Assembly: GCF_000365025.1 (NCBI RefSeq) | Contig: NZ_KB823013.1 | Span: 434,001-498,000, forward strand | DNA from: Robiginitomaculum antarcticum DSM 21748 | Lineage (GTDB): Bacteria > Pseudomonadota > Alphaproteobacteria > Caulobacterales > Maricaulaceae | Direction: 5' to 3' | Length of the DNA: 64,000 nucleotides | Part shown: piece by piece, positions 45,614-57,168 of the stretch | How the letters are laid out: every line of letters starts with the position of its first letter | How positions within the stretch are numbered: position 1 is the stretch's first letter | Translations under genes and position numbers: made by a program | The notes under the pieces: generated by a model | Databases searched by the model: none | Told to the model about the DNA's origin: nothing | Seen by the model: the letters and a program-made list of their open reading frames with translations, nothing else

Positions 45614-46209
45614 GATGCAATTGCGCCGCGTATGCGTAGATAATCCAAAACGGGCAGGAGCGAGAGGCCGAGAATGGAGAAGAAATCTCCGTCAACAGCT
45701 GAGAAAAGCTGCGCGCCAAGACCTTCGAATTTATAAGCGCCGACTGAGGTCAGCAGATCCTCTCCGCCGGCCTCGAGATAGCCGTCTAAAAAACTGTCGC
45801 TAAAATCACGCATGGTGAGTTTTGTTTTTGATATATGACGCCATACAGCAGATCCGTTCTCACTTATAACGGCGGCACCGATAAGGTAATGCGTTTTGCC
45901 GCGCAGAGCCAGCAAGCGCGCCCGCGCCTCGTCCAATGTTTGAGGTTTGTCATAAAGCCTGTCTTCAAACACCATAATCTGGTCTGCCCCAATAACCAAG
46001 CCGTCTTGATTGCGCGACACCCGTACAGATTTGGCTTCGGCTAAAGCGTCGGCGATATCGCGCAATCTTGCACCCTCAGCCAGCATCGCAGTCTTAATTG
46101 CGGCTTCGTCAACAGGTTTTGTAATGACCTCAAATGTCACGCCCGCATCATTTAGAATCCGGCGGCGTATTACGCTGCCCGAGGCCAGAGTAATAGACGG
46201 CACATTCAT
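45610..46209 (-). CDS. Maf family nucleotide pyrophosphatase
   Basis: A 199-residue Maf protein, a house-cleaning pyrophosphatase acting on modified or canonical pyrimidine nucleotides. Family marks are TLASGSVIRRRILNDAGV, a shift of the usual ASxSPRR motif (the proline is missing), VIGADQIMVFEDRLYDKP, and GAYKFEGLGAQLFSAVDGD. The exact substrate class (m7GTP, dTTP/UTP) cannot be assigned with confidence. It overlaps ppsR and aroE by four bases. Confidence 0.92.
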   Translation of the reverse strand: MNVPSITLASGSVIRRRILNDAGVTFEVITKPVDEAAIKTAMLAEGARLRDIADALAEAKSVRVSRNQDGLVIGADQIMVFEDRLYDKPQTLDEARARLLALRGKTHYLIGAAVISENGSAVWRHISKTKLTMRDFSDSFLDGYLEAGGEDLLTSVGAYKFEGLGAQLFSAVDGDFFSILGLSLLPVLDYLRIRGAIAS

Positions 46210-47036
46210 CGTTTGTGTTCCTGATAAATATTGATAATCCGCGCGGCGGTTTCCTCGATAGAGCGGCGCGACACATCCACTGTCGGCCAGCGGTGTTTCG
46301 CAAAGAGCCGCTTGGATTTTAACATTTCGTCGCGCACACTAATCTCATTCGCATAAGCACTCGCTTTGGTTTCATTCAGGCTAGCCAGGCGCTGCTCGCG
46401 TATCTCTGCTATGCGTTCGGGCCGGGCAACAAGTCCAACTATTAGCGGCTTTTTAAAGCTTATCACATCTTTGGGTAATGTCGCGCCGGGCACGAGCGGA
46501 ATATTTCCGGCTTTAATTCCTCGGTTGGCTAGATAAATACAGGTCGGCGTTTTTGACGTCCGCGAAACGCCGAGCAAGATAACGTCTGCGTCTTTAAGAC
46601 CGGCAACATTTTGTCCGTCATCATGAGCCATGGCAAAATCCAGGGCCTTGATGCGGTCATAATATTGCTCGTCCAGATGACGCTGCGCCCCAACCTCTGA
46701 AGACATAGCTTCACCAAGATACCTGCCCAAAGTAGCTAAAGTTGGGTCTAAAATAGACACGGCCTGCATATTGAGCTCCGCACAGCGCTGCTCAAGCCGG
46801 TGGCGATTTTCATCATTAACGAGTGTATAGAGCACGATCCCAGGACGGGCTTCGATCTGTTCCAATGTACGCTCCATTTGCGCCGGCGTTCGCACCAGCG
46901 CGTGTAGATGCTCCAGCGCTGTGGCATGGACAAATTGCGCGGTCGACGCTTTCATCACAGCAACCAACGTTTCACCGGTCGAGTCGGAAACAAGATGAAC
47001 ATGGAAATAGATCGATATGTCGGTTTGAGATTTCAA
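46206..47036 (-). CDS. ppsR: DUF299 kinase/pyrophosphorylase (PEP synthase/PPDK regulatory protein)
   Basis: Members of this family reversibly phosphorylate a threonine of PEP synthase or pyruvate phosphate dikinase. The 276-residue product has the family start HLVSDSTGETL, a central P-loop-like GVSRTSKTPTCIYLANRG, and SEVGAQRHLDEQYYDRIKALDFAMAHDDG. No ATG is available: the only plausible start is TTG at 47036, with a weak GAG upstream, before an in-frame stop at 47055-47057. This is the homologue of the Caulobacter RP001 gene that flanks its origin. Confidence 0.93.
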   Translation of the reverse strand: MKSQTDISIYFHVHLVSDSTGETLVAVMKASTAQFVHATALEHLHALVRTPAQMERTLEQIEARPGIVLYTLVNDENRHRLEQRCAELNMQAVSILDPTLATLGRYLGEAMSSEVGAQRHLDEQYYDRIKALDFAMAHDDGQNVAGLKDADVILLGVSRTSKTPTCIYLANRGIKAGNIPLVPGATLPKDVISFKKPLIVGLVARPERIAEIREQRLASLNETKASAYANEISVRDEMLKSKRLFAKHRWPTVDVSRRSIEETAARIINIYQEHKR

Positions 47037-47083
47037 ATTCTCGGGATATCCTGTTCATAGACGGGGCATAAAGAGTGTCTGCC

Positions 47084-47092
47084 TGTGCATAG
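47084..47092 (-). promoter_or_regulatory. DnaA-box variant CTATGCACA (copy 1)
   Basis: Read on the minus strand, CTATGCACA differs from the TTATNCACA DnaA consensus only at position 1. The surrounding CTGTGCATAG ten-mer recurs exactly at 47335-47344. Confidence 0.5.
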
Positions 47093-47159
47093 CAGGGTCG
47101 GGACTGTGCACTCAACACTTATCGAAGGGTGCCCTCACCTGTCTATGCGAATAACTTCG

Positions 47160-47174
47160 TTAATCTTTCATTAA
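47160..47174. promoter_or_regulatory. Perfect CtrA box in the origin
   Basis: TTAA, seven bases (TCTTTCA), TTAA is an exact match to the CtrA recognition sequence TTAA-N7-TTAA. In Caulobacter, phosphorylated CtrA binds such sites in Cori and blocks initiation. Here it sits about 55 bases left of the first TAATCCACA box. Confidence 0.75.
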
Positions 47175-47230
47175 CTTTTGCACTTGTGAGCGAAATGTAG
47201 TCGAGAGTCGGGAATTAAGAGGATAATATC

Positions 47231-47239
47231 TAATCCACA
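47231..47239 (+). promoter_or_regulatory. DnaA-box variant TAATCCACA (copy 1)
   Basis: TAATCCACA differs from TTATCCACA at position 2 only, the same position that varies in the Caulobacter G-box TGATCCACA. An identical copy lies in opposite orientation at 47317-47325. Confidence 0.6.
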
Positions 47240-47254
47240 TTTTATCTTGTTGAG

Positions 47255-47263
47255 TTATCCCGA
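47255..47263 (+). promoter_or_regulatory. Weak DnaA-box-like TTATCCCGA
   Basis: TTATCCCGA keeps the TTATCC core and the final A of the DnaA consensus, and lies between the two TAATCCACA copies. Confidence 0.4.
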
Positions 47264-47316
47264 CCATAATCTTTGAAATACAACATTTTTTTGACTTATT
47301 CATTGATTTATTAAGC

Positions 47317-47325
47317 TGTGGATTA
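47317..47325 (-). promoter_or_regulatory. DnaA-box variant TAATCCACA (copy 2, inverted)
   Basis: TGTGGATTA on the plus strand is TAATCCACA on the minus strand, facing copy 1 across a 77-base AT-rich segment that is a candidate unwinding region. Confidence 0.6.
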
Positions 47326-47335
47326 TTTTATCCTC

Positions 47336-47344
47336 TGTGCATAG
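47336..47344 (-). promoter_or_regulatory. DnaA-box variant CTATGCACA (copy 2)
   Basis: This copy is identical to 47084-47092 and lies within a small hairpin CCTCT-gtgcat-AGAGG (47332-47347). It is eleven bases right of the second TAATCCACA. Confidence 0.5.
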
Positions 47345-47423
47345 AGGCATATGAATTCACCCTTTCTTAAGACAAGTAAAGATGCGTTAATCTTTGCGCA
47401 CATAGTCACAGGCCCTACATCTA

Positions 47424-47451
47424 CCCCTACTTATATTTATAAGATAAGGGG
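47424..47451. repeat. Imperfect inverted repeat just upstream of hemE
   Basis: CCCCT-A-CTTATA-TT-TATAAG-ATA-AGGGG forms an almost complete 28-base palindrome, 28 bases before the hemE ATG. It overlaps any hemE promoter and could be an operator or part of the origin's protein-binding array. The family of the binding factor is unknown. Confidence 0.6.
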
Positions 47452-47479
47452 AGAGCGATAAACGAGAGCTTTTTTCAAT

Positions 47480-48502
47480 ATGACACCGTTAATACTTAGA
47501 GCTTTGCAGGGTGAAACTCTGCCTACGCCTCCTATTTGGTTTATGCGTCAGGCCGGTCGGCACTTGCCGGAATATCTGGCGACTCGGGCTAAATCCAAAG
47601 ACTTTATCGATTTTTGTTTTTCGCCTGATCTGGCCAGTGAAGCGACCTTGCAGCCCGTACGGCGTTACGATGTCGACGGCGCTATTCTCTTTGCCGATAT
47701 CTTGCTCATTCCAATCGGACTTGGGCGGTCTGTGCATTTTGAAAAGGGTGTTGGTCCTGTGCTGGAGCCGATCACGGTAGAGGGTATATCCAAGCTGACG
47801 ATTGACGGCGCAGCGGACCGCATCTCCAGTATTTATGAAACAGTATCCAAAGTTAGAGCCGCTTTGCCGGAAGATAAAACGCTCATCGGCTTTGCGGGCG
47901 GATGCTGGACGGTGGCGACCTATATGATTGAAGGACGCGGCACTCCGGATAAGGAAAAGGCCAAACGCTTTGCCTATGAAAATCCGGACGCCATGGATGA
48001 TTTACTGGACGCTCTGGCTGTGAGCACTGCAGAATATTTGGTAGGTCAGGCGAGAGCGGGCACACAGGTTCTCAAAATTTTTGAGAGTTGGGCGCAAGGC
48101 CTAAGTCCTGCGCAATTTGAGACTCTGGTCATATCGCCAACGCGCAAAATTATTCATTTGGTCCGCGAAGCGGGCATTACCGTGCCAATTATCGGGTTTC
48201 CGCGCGCGGCGGGGCTGAATATGATCACATTTTCAAATGCGCTGGACCTTCAAGGATTGGCCGTAGGCACCGATACGTCTATGGGTGCATTGCGGCCCCA
48301 TGTCAGGGACGGCTTGTGCCTTCAGGGTAATCTGGACCCGCTTCTGCTACGGATGGGCGGGCAGGCTATGCTGGACGGCGTTGACCGCGTGCTTGACGAT
48401 GCCGCTCAAGGGCCGCATATTTTCAATCTGGGACATGGCGTGACGCCGGACGTAAAGATTGAGAGCGTCCATGGCGTAATTAATCGCATTCGGGAGAGAT
48501 AA
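47480..48502 (+). CDS. hemE: Uroporphyrinogen decarboxylase HemE
   Basis: HemE decarboxylates uroporphyrinogen III to coproporphyrinogen III in heme synthesis. The 340-residue product carries the family N-terminus PPIWFMRQAGRHLPEYLATR (near 17-36), FADILLIPIGLG, GFAGGCWTVATYMIEG, GFPRAAG and the C-terminal LGHGVTPD. It is the first gene on the right arm of the putative origin and starts transcription from within or beside it. hemJ follows with no gap. Confidence 0.97.
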   Translation: MTPLILRALQGETLPTPPIWFMRQAGRHLPEYLATRAKSKDFIDFCFSPDLASEATLQPVRRYDVDGAILFADILLIPIGLGRSVHFEKGVGPVLEPITVEGISKLTIDGAADRISSIYETVSKVRAALPEDKTLIGFAGGCWTVATYMIEGRGTPDKEKAKRFAYENPDAMDDLLDALAVSTAEYLVGQARAGTQVLKIFESWAQGLSPAQFETLVISPTRKIIHLVREAGITVPIIGFPRAAGLNMITFSNALDLQGLAVGTDTSMGALRPHVRDGLCLQGNLDPLLLRMGGQAMLDGVDRVLDDAAQGPHIFNLGHGVTPDVKIESVHGVINRIRER

Positions 48503-51428: not shown

Positions 51429-52829
51429 ATGGATGCTTTAAACCAAAACTTTCCCAATGACACTATTTTTGCCCCCGCGAGCGGACAAGGCCGTGCGGGC
51501 ATTAGCGTTGTCCGCATATCCGGGCCCGACACCAACACTATATTGCGGCAAATCCTGCGTGGCAGCCTTCCGAATGTACGAAAAGCCAGCCTTCGTAAAA
51601 TTCGCCACCCGGAGAGCGGACATGTTCTGGATGAAGCGCTGGTTCTACGCTTTTCCGCCCCGGCCAGTTTTACAGGCGAGGATATGGCCGAGCTTCATTT
51701 GCATGGCAGTCCGGCAGTCCTTGAAGCTGTCGCTACGGCCATGCTGTCTCTCGGCTTGCGTTTAGCGCGGGCGGGGGAGTTTACACGCCGCGGCTTTGAA
51801 AATGGAAAAATGGATCTGACAGAGGCTGAAGGCCTGGCTGATCTGATTGATGCCCAAACCGAGCGTCAACGCGTGCAAGCCTTGCGCCAAATGGACGGCG
51901 GGCTGAAAGACGAATATGAACTATGGCGCGAGGCGATTCTAGACGCATTGGCGCAGATTGAAGGGGAGATCGACTTTCCCGATGAGGGTGATGTTCCGGA
52001 CGGGCTCTCACACAGAGCTTTGCCGGGCCTGCAAACACTGTCAGACCAGCTTAAAACTGCTTTACAGCAAAGCCGGCGCGGCGAAGCTATTAGGCATGGC
52101 GTGGATATAGCGATTATCGGAGCGCCTAATGCTGGAAAATCATCTTTAATCAATGGCTTAACAAATAAAGATACTGCTATCGTGTCTCATATAGCGGGAA
52201 CGACACGTGATGTTCTGGACGCTTATATTGATATTGACGGCTTGCCCGTTCGACTATCGGATACGGCGGGATTGCGGCTCACGAAGAATGTTATTGAAGC
52301 GGAGGGCGTTCGGCGCGCCCGCGCCCGCGCTAGTCAAGCAGATTTGCGTATCGCTTTGATAGATATGACAAAACGGTCTCAACATGTTCGGGTTTTATTA
52401 GATCTTTTACAGCCCGGAGACATTATTCTACTCAATAAGACGGATCTCAATCCTGCTGATAAAGCGGCGGAGGCTGTGCTTGCAATGATAACAGACCGCC
52501 GAGATGTTTCACGTGAAACATTCGAAATCGCCCGTATTGCGGCGACGGACATTGACGGCGTTACTGCGGCGCGGAGACTTCTCACTAAAGTTTTGCAGGA
52601 CAGATTTTCTATGACGGAGGATGCGGGTCTGACTCGCGCGCGCCATCGTGATTGTGTTGTAAAAGCCAATGAAGCCGTCAGCCGCGCGATTACGGCTTTA
52701 TCCATAGCGCCTGAATTGGCCGGAGATGATCTGCGCCGTGCCTTGCATGCGATAAAGGAATTGGCCGGAGAAACGGATATTGAAGCCGTTTTGGATCGCA
52801 TCTTCTCGCGCTTTTGTATCGGCAAGTAG
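51429..52829 (+). CDS. mnmE: tRNA modification GTPase MnmE
   Basis: MnmE with MnmG forms cmnm5U34 on tRNAs. The 466-residue product has an N-terminal folate-binding domain (ASGQGRAGISVVRISGP), a G domain with P-loop IIGAPNAGKSSLING, IAGTTRDVLD, SDTAGLR and NKTD, and it ends in the required C-terminal CIGK motif. The ATG at 51429 fits the family; the frame opens earlier inside the GDPD gene. A perfect parS site lies inside the G-domain coding region. Confidence 0.96.
   Translation: MDALNQNFPNDTIFAPASGQGRAGISVVRISGPDTNTILRQILRGSLPNVRKASLRKIRHPESGHVLDEALVLRFSAPASFTGEDMAELHLHGSPAVLEAVATAMLSLGLRLARAGEFTRRGFENGKMDLTEAEGLADLIDAQTERQRVQALRQMDGGLKDEYELWREAILDALAQIEGEIDFPDEGDVPDGLSHRALPGLQTLSDQLKTALQQSRRGEAIRHGVDIAIIGAPNAGKSSLINGLTNKDTAIVSHIAGTTRDVLDAYIDIDGLPVRLSDTAGLRLTKNVIEAEGVRRARARASQADLRIALIDMTKRSQHVRVLLDLLQPGDIILLNKTDLNPADKAAEAVLAMITDRRDVSRETFEIARIAATDIDGVTAARRLLTKVLQDRFSMTEDAGLTRARHRDCVVKANEAVSRAITALSIAPELAGDDLRRALHAIKELAGETDIEAVLDRIFSRFCIGK
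52504..52521. other. parS: parS centromere site inside mnmE
   Basis: TGTTTCACGTGAAACA (52505-52520) is an exact match to the ParB-binding palindrome, extended to 18 symmetric bases. In frame it encodes VSRET within the MnmE protein. ParB is encoded 3.7 kb downstream. Confidence 0.95.
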
Positions 52830-54761: not shown

Positions 54762-55397
54762 ATGCCGGGACGCGCCGTTTTCGCTGCTCAGGACAATGTT
54801 TCACGTGAAACATTGGCGGCTTTCGATATTTGGTTTAATCTTCTCACCCGCTGGAATGCATCGATAAATTTGGTTCAAAAAACGTCACTTGAGCAATTTT
54901 GGACCCGTCATGCCGCCGATAGCTGGCAAATCACCGATTATATTCCAGACGGAACACTGCGGGCCATTGATCTGGGCTCCGGCGGGGGATTTCCGGGCCT
55001 GGCGGTCGGGATATGGCTTAAGACACAAGGTAAAGGCGGGGTGAAGCTTGTCGAGGCAGCCGGTAAAAAGGCCTCATTTTTACGCACGGCGGCGCGCGAA
55101 ATGGACTTACCGGTGAATGTCGCGGCGAAACGGGCTGAATCGCTCCCTAACGACCCCTATAATGTGATAACGGCGCGGGCTTTTGCGCCGCTGCCGAAGC
55201 TTTTGACCTATGCCGAACGGTTTACGGGGCCTGATACACGGCTGATTTTGCTTAAAGGGCGGCAAGCACCCACAGAAATCAAGCAAGCGCGCACCGATTT
55301 TGACTTTAATTGCGATATATTCCCCAGTATCTCTGACCCTGAGGGACATGTGCTCGTGCTTTCTGATCTGAGACACCGCCAAATAGGGACGCCATAA
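54762..55397 (+). CDS. rsmG: 16S rRNA (guanine527-N7)-methyltransferase RsmG
   Basis: RsmG (GidB) methylates G527 of 16S rRNA; loss gives low-level streptomycin resistance. The 211-residue product has the N-terminal NVSRETLAAF, LTRWNASINLV, and the SAM-binding DLGSGGGFPGLAVGI, then ITARAFAPLPKLL. The ATG at 54762 lies seven bases after the mnmG stop; another at 54735 overlaps mnmG. A second perfect parS site lies in the first codons and encodes VSRET. Confidence 0.94.
   Translation: MPGRAVFAAQDNVSRETLAAFDIWFNLLTRWNASINLVQKTSLEQFWTRHAADSWQITDYIPDGTLRAIDLGSGGGFPGLAVGIWLKTQGKGGVKLVEAAGKKASFLRTAAREMDLPVNVAAKRAESLPNDPYNVITARAFAPLPKLLTYAERFTGPDTRLILLKGRQAPTEIKQARTDFDFNCDIFPSISDPEGHVLVLSDLRHRQIGTP
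54795..54814. other. parS: parS centromere site inside rsmG
   Basis: TGTTTCACGTGAAACA (54797-54812) is an exact parS, here extended to a fully symmetric 20-base palindrome. It lies 2.3 kb from the mnmE copy and 0.6 kb before parA. Confidence 0.96.
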
Positions 55398-55402
55398 CCG
55401 CC

Positions 55403-56185
55403 ATGAAGACTATTGCTATCGTCAATCAGAAGGGCGGCGTCGGGAAAACGACGACAACGATCAATCTGGCCGCAGCGTTGACCCTTCTCGGGAAAACGGT
55501 TCTAATCATTGATCTGGACCCACAAGGCAATGCCAGTACAGGTCTTGGCCTTTTGCGCGCAGACCGCAATCAAACCAGTTATGATTTACTAGTCGATGGC
55601 GTGGATATTGATGACACTATTCACGAAACCTCTGTGCCGAATTTACAGATCATCCCGTCCGATATGGATTTATCCGGCGCGGAGCTCGAAATTGGTGAGC
55701 AGGCCGGGCGCACAACGCGGTTAAAATCTGCCCTGAACAGCTTGTCGCCCAAACCGGACTATATCTTGATCGACTGTCCGCCGTCCTTAAGTCTATTGAC
55801 TGTCAATGCCTTAGCGGCATCCGATAGCGTTCTTGTGCCGCTACAATGTGAGTTTTATGCGCTTGAGGGATTAAGCCAGCTGCTCAAAACTGTAGAGATG
55901 GCGAAGGCCAATATTAATCCCGCTTTGATCATCGAGGGCGTTATGCTGACCATGTATGATCAACGTAATCGCTTGTCAGCGCAGGTCGCCGCGGATGTCC
56001 GCAAGCATTTGGGCCGCGCCGTGTTTAAAACCATGGTGCCGCGCAATGTCCGCATTGCCGAGGCGCCCAGCTATGGCCGGCCGGTGCTTATGTATGATCG
56101 TAATTGCGCCGGATCCATCGCCTATATGGATTTAGCAAAAGAGATATTGGCGCGAAGAAAACCTGAACAGAAACGAGGCACATAA
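55403..56185 (+). CDS. parA: Chromosome partitioning ATPase ParA
   Basis: ParA is the Walker-type ATPase whose DNA-bound gradient moves ParB-parS complexes. The 260-residue product has the deviant Walker A NQKGGVGKTTTTINLAAAL (KGGxGKT, residues 10-17), the A' block DLDPQGNASTGLG and Walker B ILIDCPPSLSLLTVNAL. Its stop overlaps the parB start as TAATG. It is five bases after rsmG. Confidence 0.97.
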   Translation: MKTIAIVNQKGGVGKTTTTINLAAALTLLGKTVLIIDLDPQGNASTGLGLLRADRNQTSYDLLVDGVDIDDTIHETSVPNLQIIPSDMDLSGAELEIGEQAGRTTRLKSALNSLSPKPDYILIDCPPSLSLLTVNALAASDSVLVPLQCEFYALEGLSQLLKTVEMAKANINPALIIEGVMLTMYDQRNRLSAQVAADVRKHLGRAVFKTMVPRNVRIAEAPSYGRPVLMYDRNCAGSIAYMDLAKEILARRKPEQKRGT

Positions 56186-57168
56186 TGGTAAAATCTCCCA
56201 AATCTGAAGCATCGACGCCCAAACGGGCACGCGATCGTGGTCTTGGACGGGGTTTATCTGCATTGATGAATGATGTTTCAGACGCTGTTTTAGACAATCC
56301 TGCCTCTGAAGAATCTCCGAAGATATCGAAGGTATCACCTGATAAAACGCATGAAAATGTAAAGACTACCCCATCTACACGCAGCGCAGCCGAATTTATT
56401 TCGATATCTCTGATTGAACGTAACCCTAATCAACCACGCCAATATTTCGACCCGGTCAAGATGGTGGAGCTGGAGCGCAGCGTTAAGGAGAAGGGCGTGT
56501 TGCAGCCATTGCTCGTGCGCCCGTTTGAGAGCAAGGGGAAGACCCGTTACCAGATCGTGGCCGGCGAACGCCGCTATCAAGCTGCATTGAAGGCGGGACT
56601 GGATCAGCTCCCCGCTATGATACGCGAGTTGTCGGACCGCGAGGTTCTTGAGATTGGCGTGGTCGAAAATGTCCAGCGCGCCAATTTGAACCCGATCGAA
56701 GAGGCCAGCGCCTATCGCAATTTGATGGATGAATTTGGACGCACACAGGAAGACGTCGCCACTGCCGTCGGCAAAAGCCGTTCACATGTGGCGAATATGG
56801 TGCGGCTTTTAACCCTGCCTGACCGTGCACAGCACTTTCTCGCTATGGGAAAACTATCAGCCGGACATGCGCGCGCCGTTATATCTGCCCCGGACCCACT
56901 GGCTCTGGCTGAAATGATTGTCGCCAAAGATCTGTCCGTACGCGAAACCGAGAAGATGGTTCGCCGTCTGAAAAAAGGACAGCCGCTACAGCCGCGCTTA
57001 GAGACAAAGTCGGCGGACATCCGCGCGCTGGAAAAACAGCTCGGCGATACGCTCGGCCTACGGGTGGATTTAAAACATAAAGGCCCGAATGGACGCCTTG
57101 AAATTCATTACCGCAATGATGAAGAGCTGGAAGACCTGATCAAACGCCTGCCTGAGGGCTGGGGTTAG
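56185..57168 (+). CDS. parB: Chromosome partitioning CTPase ParB
   Basis: ParB binds parS, clamps DNA using CTP and spreads. The 327-residue product has a basic N-terminal segment GRGLSALMNDV (ParA-stimulating type), the nuclease-fold domain with LIERNPNQPRQYF and the CTP motif GERRYQAALKAG, and an HTH region EDVATAVGKSRSHVANMVRLL. A C-terminal dimerisation part is rich in leucine and charge. Two parS sites lie upstream. It ends overlapping an orphan gene on the other strand by four bases. Confidence 0.97.
   Translation: MVKSPKSEASTPKRARDRGLGRGLSALMNDVSDAVLDNPASEESPKISKVSPDKTHENVKTTPSTRSAAEFISISLIERNPNQPRQYFDPVKMVELERSVKEKGVLQPLLVRPFESKGKTRYQIVAGERRYQAALKAGLDQLPAMIRELSDREVLEIGVVENVQRANLNPIEEASAYRNLMDEFGRTQEDVATAVGKSRSHVANMVRLLTLPDRAQHFLAMGKLSAGHARAVISAPDPLALAEMIVAKDLSVRETEKMVRRLKKGQPLQPRLETKSADIRALEKQLGDTLGLRVDLKHKGPNGRLEIHYRNDEELEDLIKRLPEGWG

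Follow-up and report, generated by a model that had tools for sequence, protein, structure and literature searches.

Where on its chromosome does this Maricaulaceae-like bacterium of the Caulobacterales begin replication, and which part of the origin would open the DNA? The window, a stretch of 64,000 nucleotides (C3:434001–498000, in a five-contig assembly of a 2.77 Mb genome), includes a gap of 443 bp between ppsR and hemE which, from its sequence features and gene context, is almost certainly the chromosome's replication origin, Cori-like as in Caulobacter. To find an origin here is no surprise. What is gained is a well-defined candidate site, open to testing, at which hemE-linked origins would open their DNA, along with the means to tell apart the origin parts that evolution fixes from those that it lets drift.

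The gap between ppsR and hemE

The landmarks of the locus are as follows (window coordinates, here and below).

46206–47036, minus strand: ppsR (DUF299/COG1806), open reading frame, left flank of the origin
47037–47479, no strand: region assigned almost certainly as the Cori-type replication origin, 443 bp, GC 0.39
47480–48502, plus strand: hemE, open reading frame, right flank of the origin
52505–52520, no strand: perfect parS site TGTTTCACGTGAAACA
54797–54812, no strand: perfect parS site TGTTTCACGTGAAACA
55403–57168, plus strand: two open reading frames which, from features of both, we take to be the ori-linked segregation genes parA-parB

Gene order at this locus is highly stable. Our family sample comprised 59 genomes, this one among them, with a hemE match in 53; a divergent ppsR homologue was found upstream of hemE in 50 of the 50 loci whose upstream DNA was examined (own genome counted), separated from it by 351–596 bp, although these genomes are related to one another and the counts are not independent events. 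The same order recurs in 34 loci of a named set, one of which lies on a contig already counted in the family sample. With a GC content of 0.39, the gap lies below the 0.48–0.55 seen per 50 kb genome-wide. It holds eight DnaA-like boxes with up to two mismatches to TTATCCACA against 1.3 expected, and at least eight are reached by just 0.026% of all 443-bp windows of the genome and 0.17% of AT-matched ones. An Rfam search of the window gave no match.

The parS sites point to the same place. Perfect copies occur in the 2.77 Mb genome at only the two sites listed, 5 and 7 kb away from the gap. Seven relatives were found to have perfect parS no farther than about 20 kb from hemE, with no copy elsewhere. 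Judged from hit coordinates, parS flanks the origin on its ppsR side in two relatives (G001 and G008), not on the hemE side as here, which suggests a local rearrangement.

At 47000, across the gap, GC skew within the window rises from roughly -0.02 to roughly +0.10. On C3 the cumulative skew, computed on contigs stitched from stretches, is lowest at 471990, a position 9 kb away from the gap, and climbs steadily from about 482000, its last sustained rise beginning at the gap. C1 shows a sharp cumulative-skew maximum at 563942; there, GGGNAGGG motifs, which are KOPS-like, swap strand almost completely in a terminus-like manner. The cumulative-skew check proposed in the sequence-only reading of this DNA gives a mixed picture: the local switch and the nearby contig minimum agree with an origin in the gap, whereas a second, weaker minimum lies at C1:1119034, and over the next 260 kb or so both the skew and the polarity of KOPS-like motifs are reversed. 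An inversion or an assembly misjoin would produce such a minimum. This switch of skew and polarity near C1:1.12–1.15 Mb is what speaks for a main origin elsewhere, near C1:1119034 or at dnaA-dnaN on C2. Yet the vicinity of C1:1119034 offers no perfect parS, just a two-mismatch site at C1:1070864, and both the hemE-ppsR synteny and the nearness of parS across the family favour the hemE gap, so that we regard a main origin elsewhere as extremely unlikely. The dnaA-dnaN locus was rejected as a candidate because C2, which carries it, has no skew switch.

CtrA sites

Three sites for CtrA or close to its motif were identified in the gap.

47160–47174, no strand: exact CtrA site TTAATCTTTCATTAA
47356–47370, no strand: CtrA-like site TTCACCCTTTCTTAA, one mismatch
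47376–47390, no strand: CtrA-like site GTAAAGATGCGTTAA, one mismatch; relatives often have TTAA-N7-TTAA-like half-sites here

Exact CtrA sites number 38 genome-wide, with 0.006 expected per 443 bp. The genome has a CtrA gene, its product 85% identical to a Caulobacter CtrA probe sequence. In the related Hyphomonas neptunium, CtrA has been found by ChIP to be bound beside the origin (PMC7200025). A direct repeat, CGTTAATCTTT, at 47158–47168 and 47385–47395 means that the half-site next to the hemE-proximal conserved element has 11 bases in common with the exact CtrA site. The sequence-only reading mentioned neither the CtrA sites nor the hemE-proximal element described below; its central claim, a Cori-like origin in the ppsR/hemE gap, is upheld by the synteny, the local skew switch, parS, the low GC, the DnaA-box density and the exact CtrA site.

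Resemblance to known hemE-linked origins

The locus shares much with Cori of Caulobacter crescentus, namely the hemE and COG1806 (DUF299) flanks, a length of about 400–440 bp, a GC content below that of the genome, TTAA-N7-TTAA CtrA sites and parS within 10 kb (PMC1914354, PMC4285127, PMC10797057, PMC6399470). Also common to both are two opposed DnaA boxes altered at position 2, together with further weak boxes. In Caulobacter the opposed boxes are the two G-boxes TGATCCACA (PMC4285127, PMC10797057), whereas here they read TAATCCACA, and there are five CtrA sites there against one exact and two one-mismatch sites here. We found no TGATCCACA in the gap, nor did we see the W-box TCCCCA (PMC4285127) or its complement TGGGGA in the gap sequence. 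The IHF pattern WATCAN5WTR had no match on either strand of the gap; since this pattern is loose, an IHF site was treated as a usual but not a required Cori-type feature. The origins of Rickettsia and other Alphaproteobacteria are likewise hemE-linked and AT-rich and contain DnaA sites, in many cases together with CtrA sites (PMC1914354), but their box sequences differ, and in Anaplasmataceae the flank on the other side varies.

The paired DnaA boxes

The boxes in question and the inverted repeat are listed here.

47084–47092, minus strand: weak DnaA-like box CTATGCACA; two of four genus mates (G050 and G031) have the motif at this place
47105–47110, minus strand: TGTGCA core, 21 bp from the core at 47084; also in G050
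47218–47244, plus strand: left arm of an imperfect inverted repeat, containing TTATCCTCT (minus) and TAATCCACA (plus)
47231–47239, plus strand: DnaA box TAATCCACA, one mismatch, at position 2
47312–47336, minus strand: right arm of the inverted repeat, containing TAATCCACA (minus) and TTATCCTCT (plus)
47317–47325, minus strand: DnaA box TAATCCACA, in opposite orientation to the copy at 47231
47336–47344, minus strand: weak DnaA-like box CTATGCACA; the aligned site is CTATCAACA or TTATCAACA in G050 and G031

Both pairs reported by the sequence-only reading are present where it placed them, the TAATCCACA copies opposed and the CTATGCACA copies direct on the minus strand, and exact TTATCCACA is indeed absent from the window; genome-wide it occurs 18 times. 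That reading had further proposed that TAATCCACA and CTATGCACA form a DnaA-box code that is specific to this lineage and graded in affinity, comparable to the Caulobacter G- and W-boxes. Several observations favour such a code. The variants occur 15 and 14 times in the genome, respectively, and two of each fall within the 443-bp gap, where about 0.0024 would be expected for each. Three DnaA-like 9-mers are repeated in the gap, and at least two were repeated in none of 1000 Markov simulations; by permutation, the three identical pairs had P of about 0.005 for this genome alone. The change at position 2 and the opposed directions fit G-boxes (PMC4285127, PMC10797057), and CTATGCACA near 47084 is kept in G050 and G031.

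The wider comparison argues against it. When boxes were dealt out among GC-matched origins, identical non-consensus pairs over 50 origins proved to be at chance level (12 against 12.3, with P about 0.59), and in 42% of permutations at least one genome would be expected to show three pairs. None of the four genus mates has TAATCCACA, and G050 and G031 each have one TTATCCACA. Given that a single inverted repeat copies both TAATCCACA and TTATCCTCT, these two pairs look like one event. Aligned to the E. coli DnaA-DNA structure 1J1V, the DNA-binding domain IV of DnaA keeps the ARPRQ and GGRDHTTV motifs unchanged; as these box-contacting motifs are canonical, an altered box preference of this DnaA seems unlikely. 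We therefore consider a lineage-specific code quite improbable. Of the likeness to G-boxes, the two opposed boxes altered at position 2 stand, but not the identical pairs as a lineage-specific set; the expected conservation of boxes in relatives holds for CTATGCACA near 47084 in two genus mates and breaks down for the other exact boxes in all four. The paired boxes are real but fast-changing between species. The TGTGCA cores at 47084 and 47105 lie two helical turns apart, and both are found in the nearest relative, G050, with the intervening DNA changed.

A conserved element beside hemE

In the alignment of genus mates, the best-conserved block of the gap lies directly before hemE, at 47376–47446. 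CtrA-like half-sites come first, then box 1 (of the form TTnnnCACA), box 2, whose end lies 8 bp farther on, a C/G stretch, CTA triplets and AT-rich DNA. The parts beyond the half-sites are given below with the least stable DNA of the gap, which lies outside the element.

47276–47315, no strand: least stable 40-bp stretch of 46901–47700 by nearest-neighbour energies, candidate AT-rich region between the TAATCCACA boxes
47394–47402, plus strand: degenerate DnaA box 1, TTGCGCACA, three mismatches to TTATCCACA
47402–47410, plus strand: degenerate DnaA box 2, ATAGTCACA, three mismatches to TTATCCACA, with GGCC next
47415–47441, plus strand: DnaA-trio-like CTA triplets leading into AT-rich DNA (CTA CAT CTA CCC CTA CTT ATA TTT ATA)

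An iterated profile search recovered the element in some 20 family genomes, in every case on the plus strand and 44–138 bp before the hemE hit. Two held-out tests used models trained without the genus. In the first, a profile HMM built on 16 genomes of other genera matched the own genome at C3:481368–481434 with an E-value of 1.9e-6, the next match having 5.3; its blocks were first collected with an own-genus seed, so that knowledge of the site entered the gathering of the training set, though not its building. In the second, a weight matrix gave its highest score among 5.5 million positions to the segment 47403–47432. A matrix trained on the family placed its best site at most 160 nt from hemE in 29 of 33 other origins, where about 13 were expected (28 of 32 without the Maricaulis origin), with a mean score of 8.8, where block-shuffled sequences average 3.6 ± 0.6 and the other strand 3.5. 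These comparisons of sequences establish the element's conservation and position, not its function. A de novo motif run on all 83 origins was not counted as evidence of strength, since its opposite-strand control gave AT-rich or CtrA-like motifs of similar total likelihood. A similar layout is seen in Rhodospirillales, sphingomonads and Brevundimonas. The equivalent boxes of Brevundimonas (L199) read GTCCCCG-TCATCCCCG, near the Caulobacter W-box TCCCCA (PMC4285127).

The element overlaps the region upstream of hemE, so part of its conservation could stem from a promoter. It might even be just that, a hemE promoter or CtrA-regulated control region, with opening taking place instead in the AT-rich stretch at 47276–47315 between the TAATCCACA boxes. 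Its placement 38–140 nt before hemE in most family genomes, the adjoining CtrA-like sites and the low stability of the 47276–47315 stretch are all compatible with this. But a search of the element for sigma-70-like promoters found none, the conserved letters are those of two same-direction boxes ending in CACA, a C/G spacer and CTA triplets, and the layout recurs in the more distant groups just named. We think the promoter explanation unlikely; the element probably opens the DNA, and would then be conserved in this role across Alphaproteobacteria.

Comparison with the basal unwinding system

A basal unwinding system (BUS) has been predicted in 85% of 2070 origins (PMC8287927). Like the BUS of Bacillus subtilis and others, the element has tandem boxes in one direction, a short C/G spacer and CTA (3'-GAT-5') triplets running into AT-rich DNA on the hemE-ward strand. 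Unlike those, it has three mismatches per box, and its CTA alternates with other triplets. The published rule asks for a DnaA box with at most two mismatches (for a pair, at most two and four) and at least three consecutive NAN trios within 16 bp (PMC8287927). Both TTGCGCACA and ATAGTCACA exceed this with three mismatches each, and the rule finds nothing in the own origin at two box mismatches; at three it selects ATAGTCACA with a 16-bp spacer and the trios CTA CTT ATA, the nearest triplets being CTA CAT CTA. Across the family, 18 of 50 origins pass, against a mean of 4.9 for shuffled sequences, and since the opposite strand passes in 13, the rule alone is not specific here. Because the strict rule failed, we have not filed the element as a BUS member, although we consider it likely that it works like one. 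Our search of open-access literature on DnaA-trios in Caulobacter or Alphaproteobacteria turned up no mapped opening site.

A proposed model for origin opening

A reading of the locus as a Cori-type origin with a DnaA/CtrA/ParB mechanism and an opening element on the hemE side appears to us highly probable. DnaA would bind the dispersed boxes of presumably weak affinity (47084, 47231, 47317, 47336 and others) and assemble towards hemE. There, the two abutting degenerate boxes (47394–47410) would guide it past GGCC, a short spacer, to the CTA triplets from 47415 onwards, where it may capture one strand, the DNA opening into the AT-rich stretch before hemE. CtrA, at 47160 and at the CtrA-like sites next to the opening element (47356 and 47376), would block DnaA in cells that are not replicating, and ParB at the two parS sites would segregate the copied origin.

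More broadly, hemE-linked alphaproteobacterial origins may descend from one ancestor with a single opening element beside hemE, made of two abutting, often degenerate DnaA boxes (W-box-like in Brevundimonas), a C/G spacer and CTA triplets, with CtrA gating opening itself in the present lineage, where CtrA-like sites abut the element, and the other boxes turning over freely; we see this generalisation as evenly poised. An opening site at this place would join the weak boxes and CtrA control of Caulobacter to the general BUS model.

The genome also encodes, on C1 near 88 kb (L192, 1408–1797), a 129-aa protein made up largely of the C-terminal DNA-binding domain of DnaA (PF08299, 42.5 bits); its gene lies near a MucR-like one, and it is reminiscent of the DnaA-related protein HdaB.
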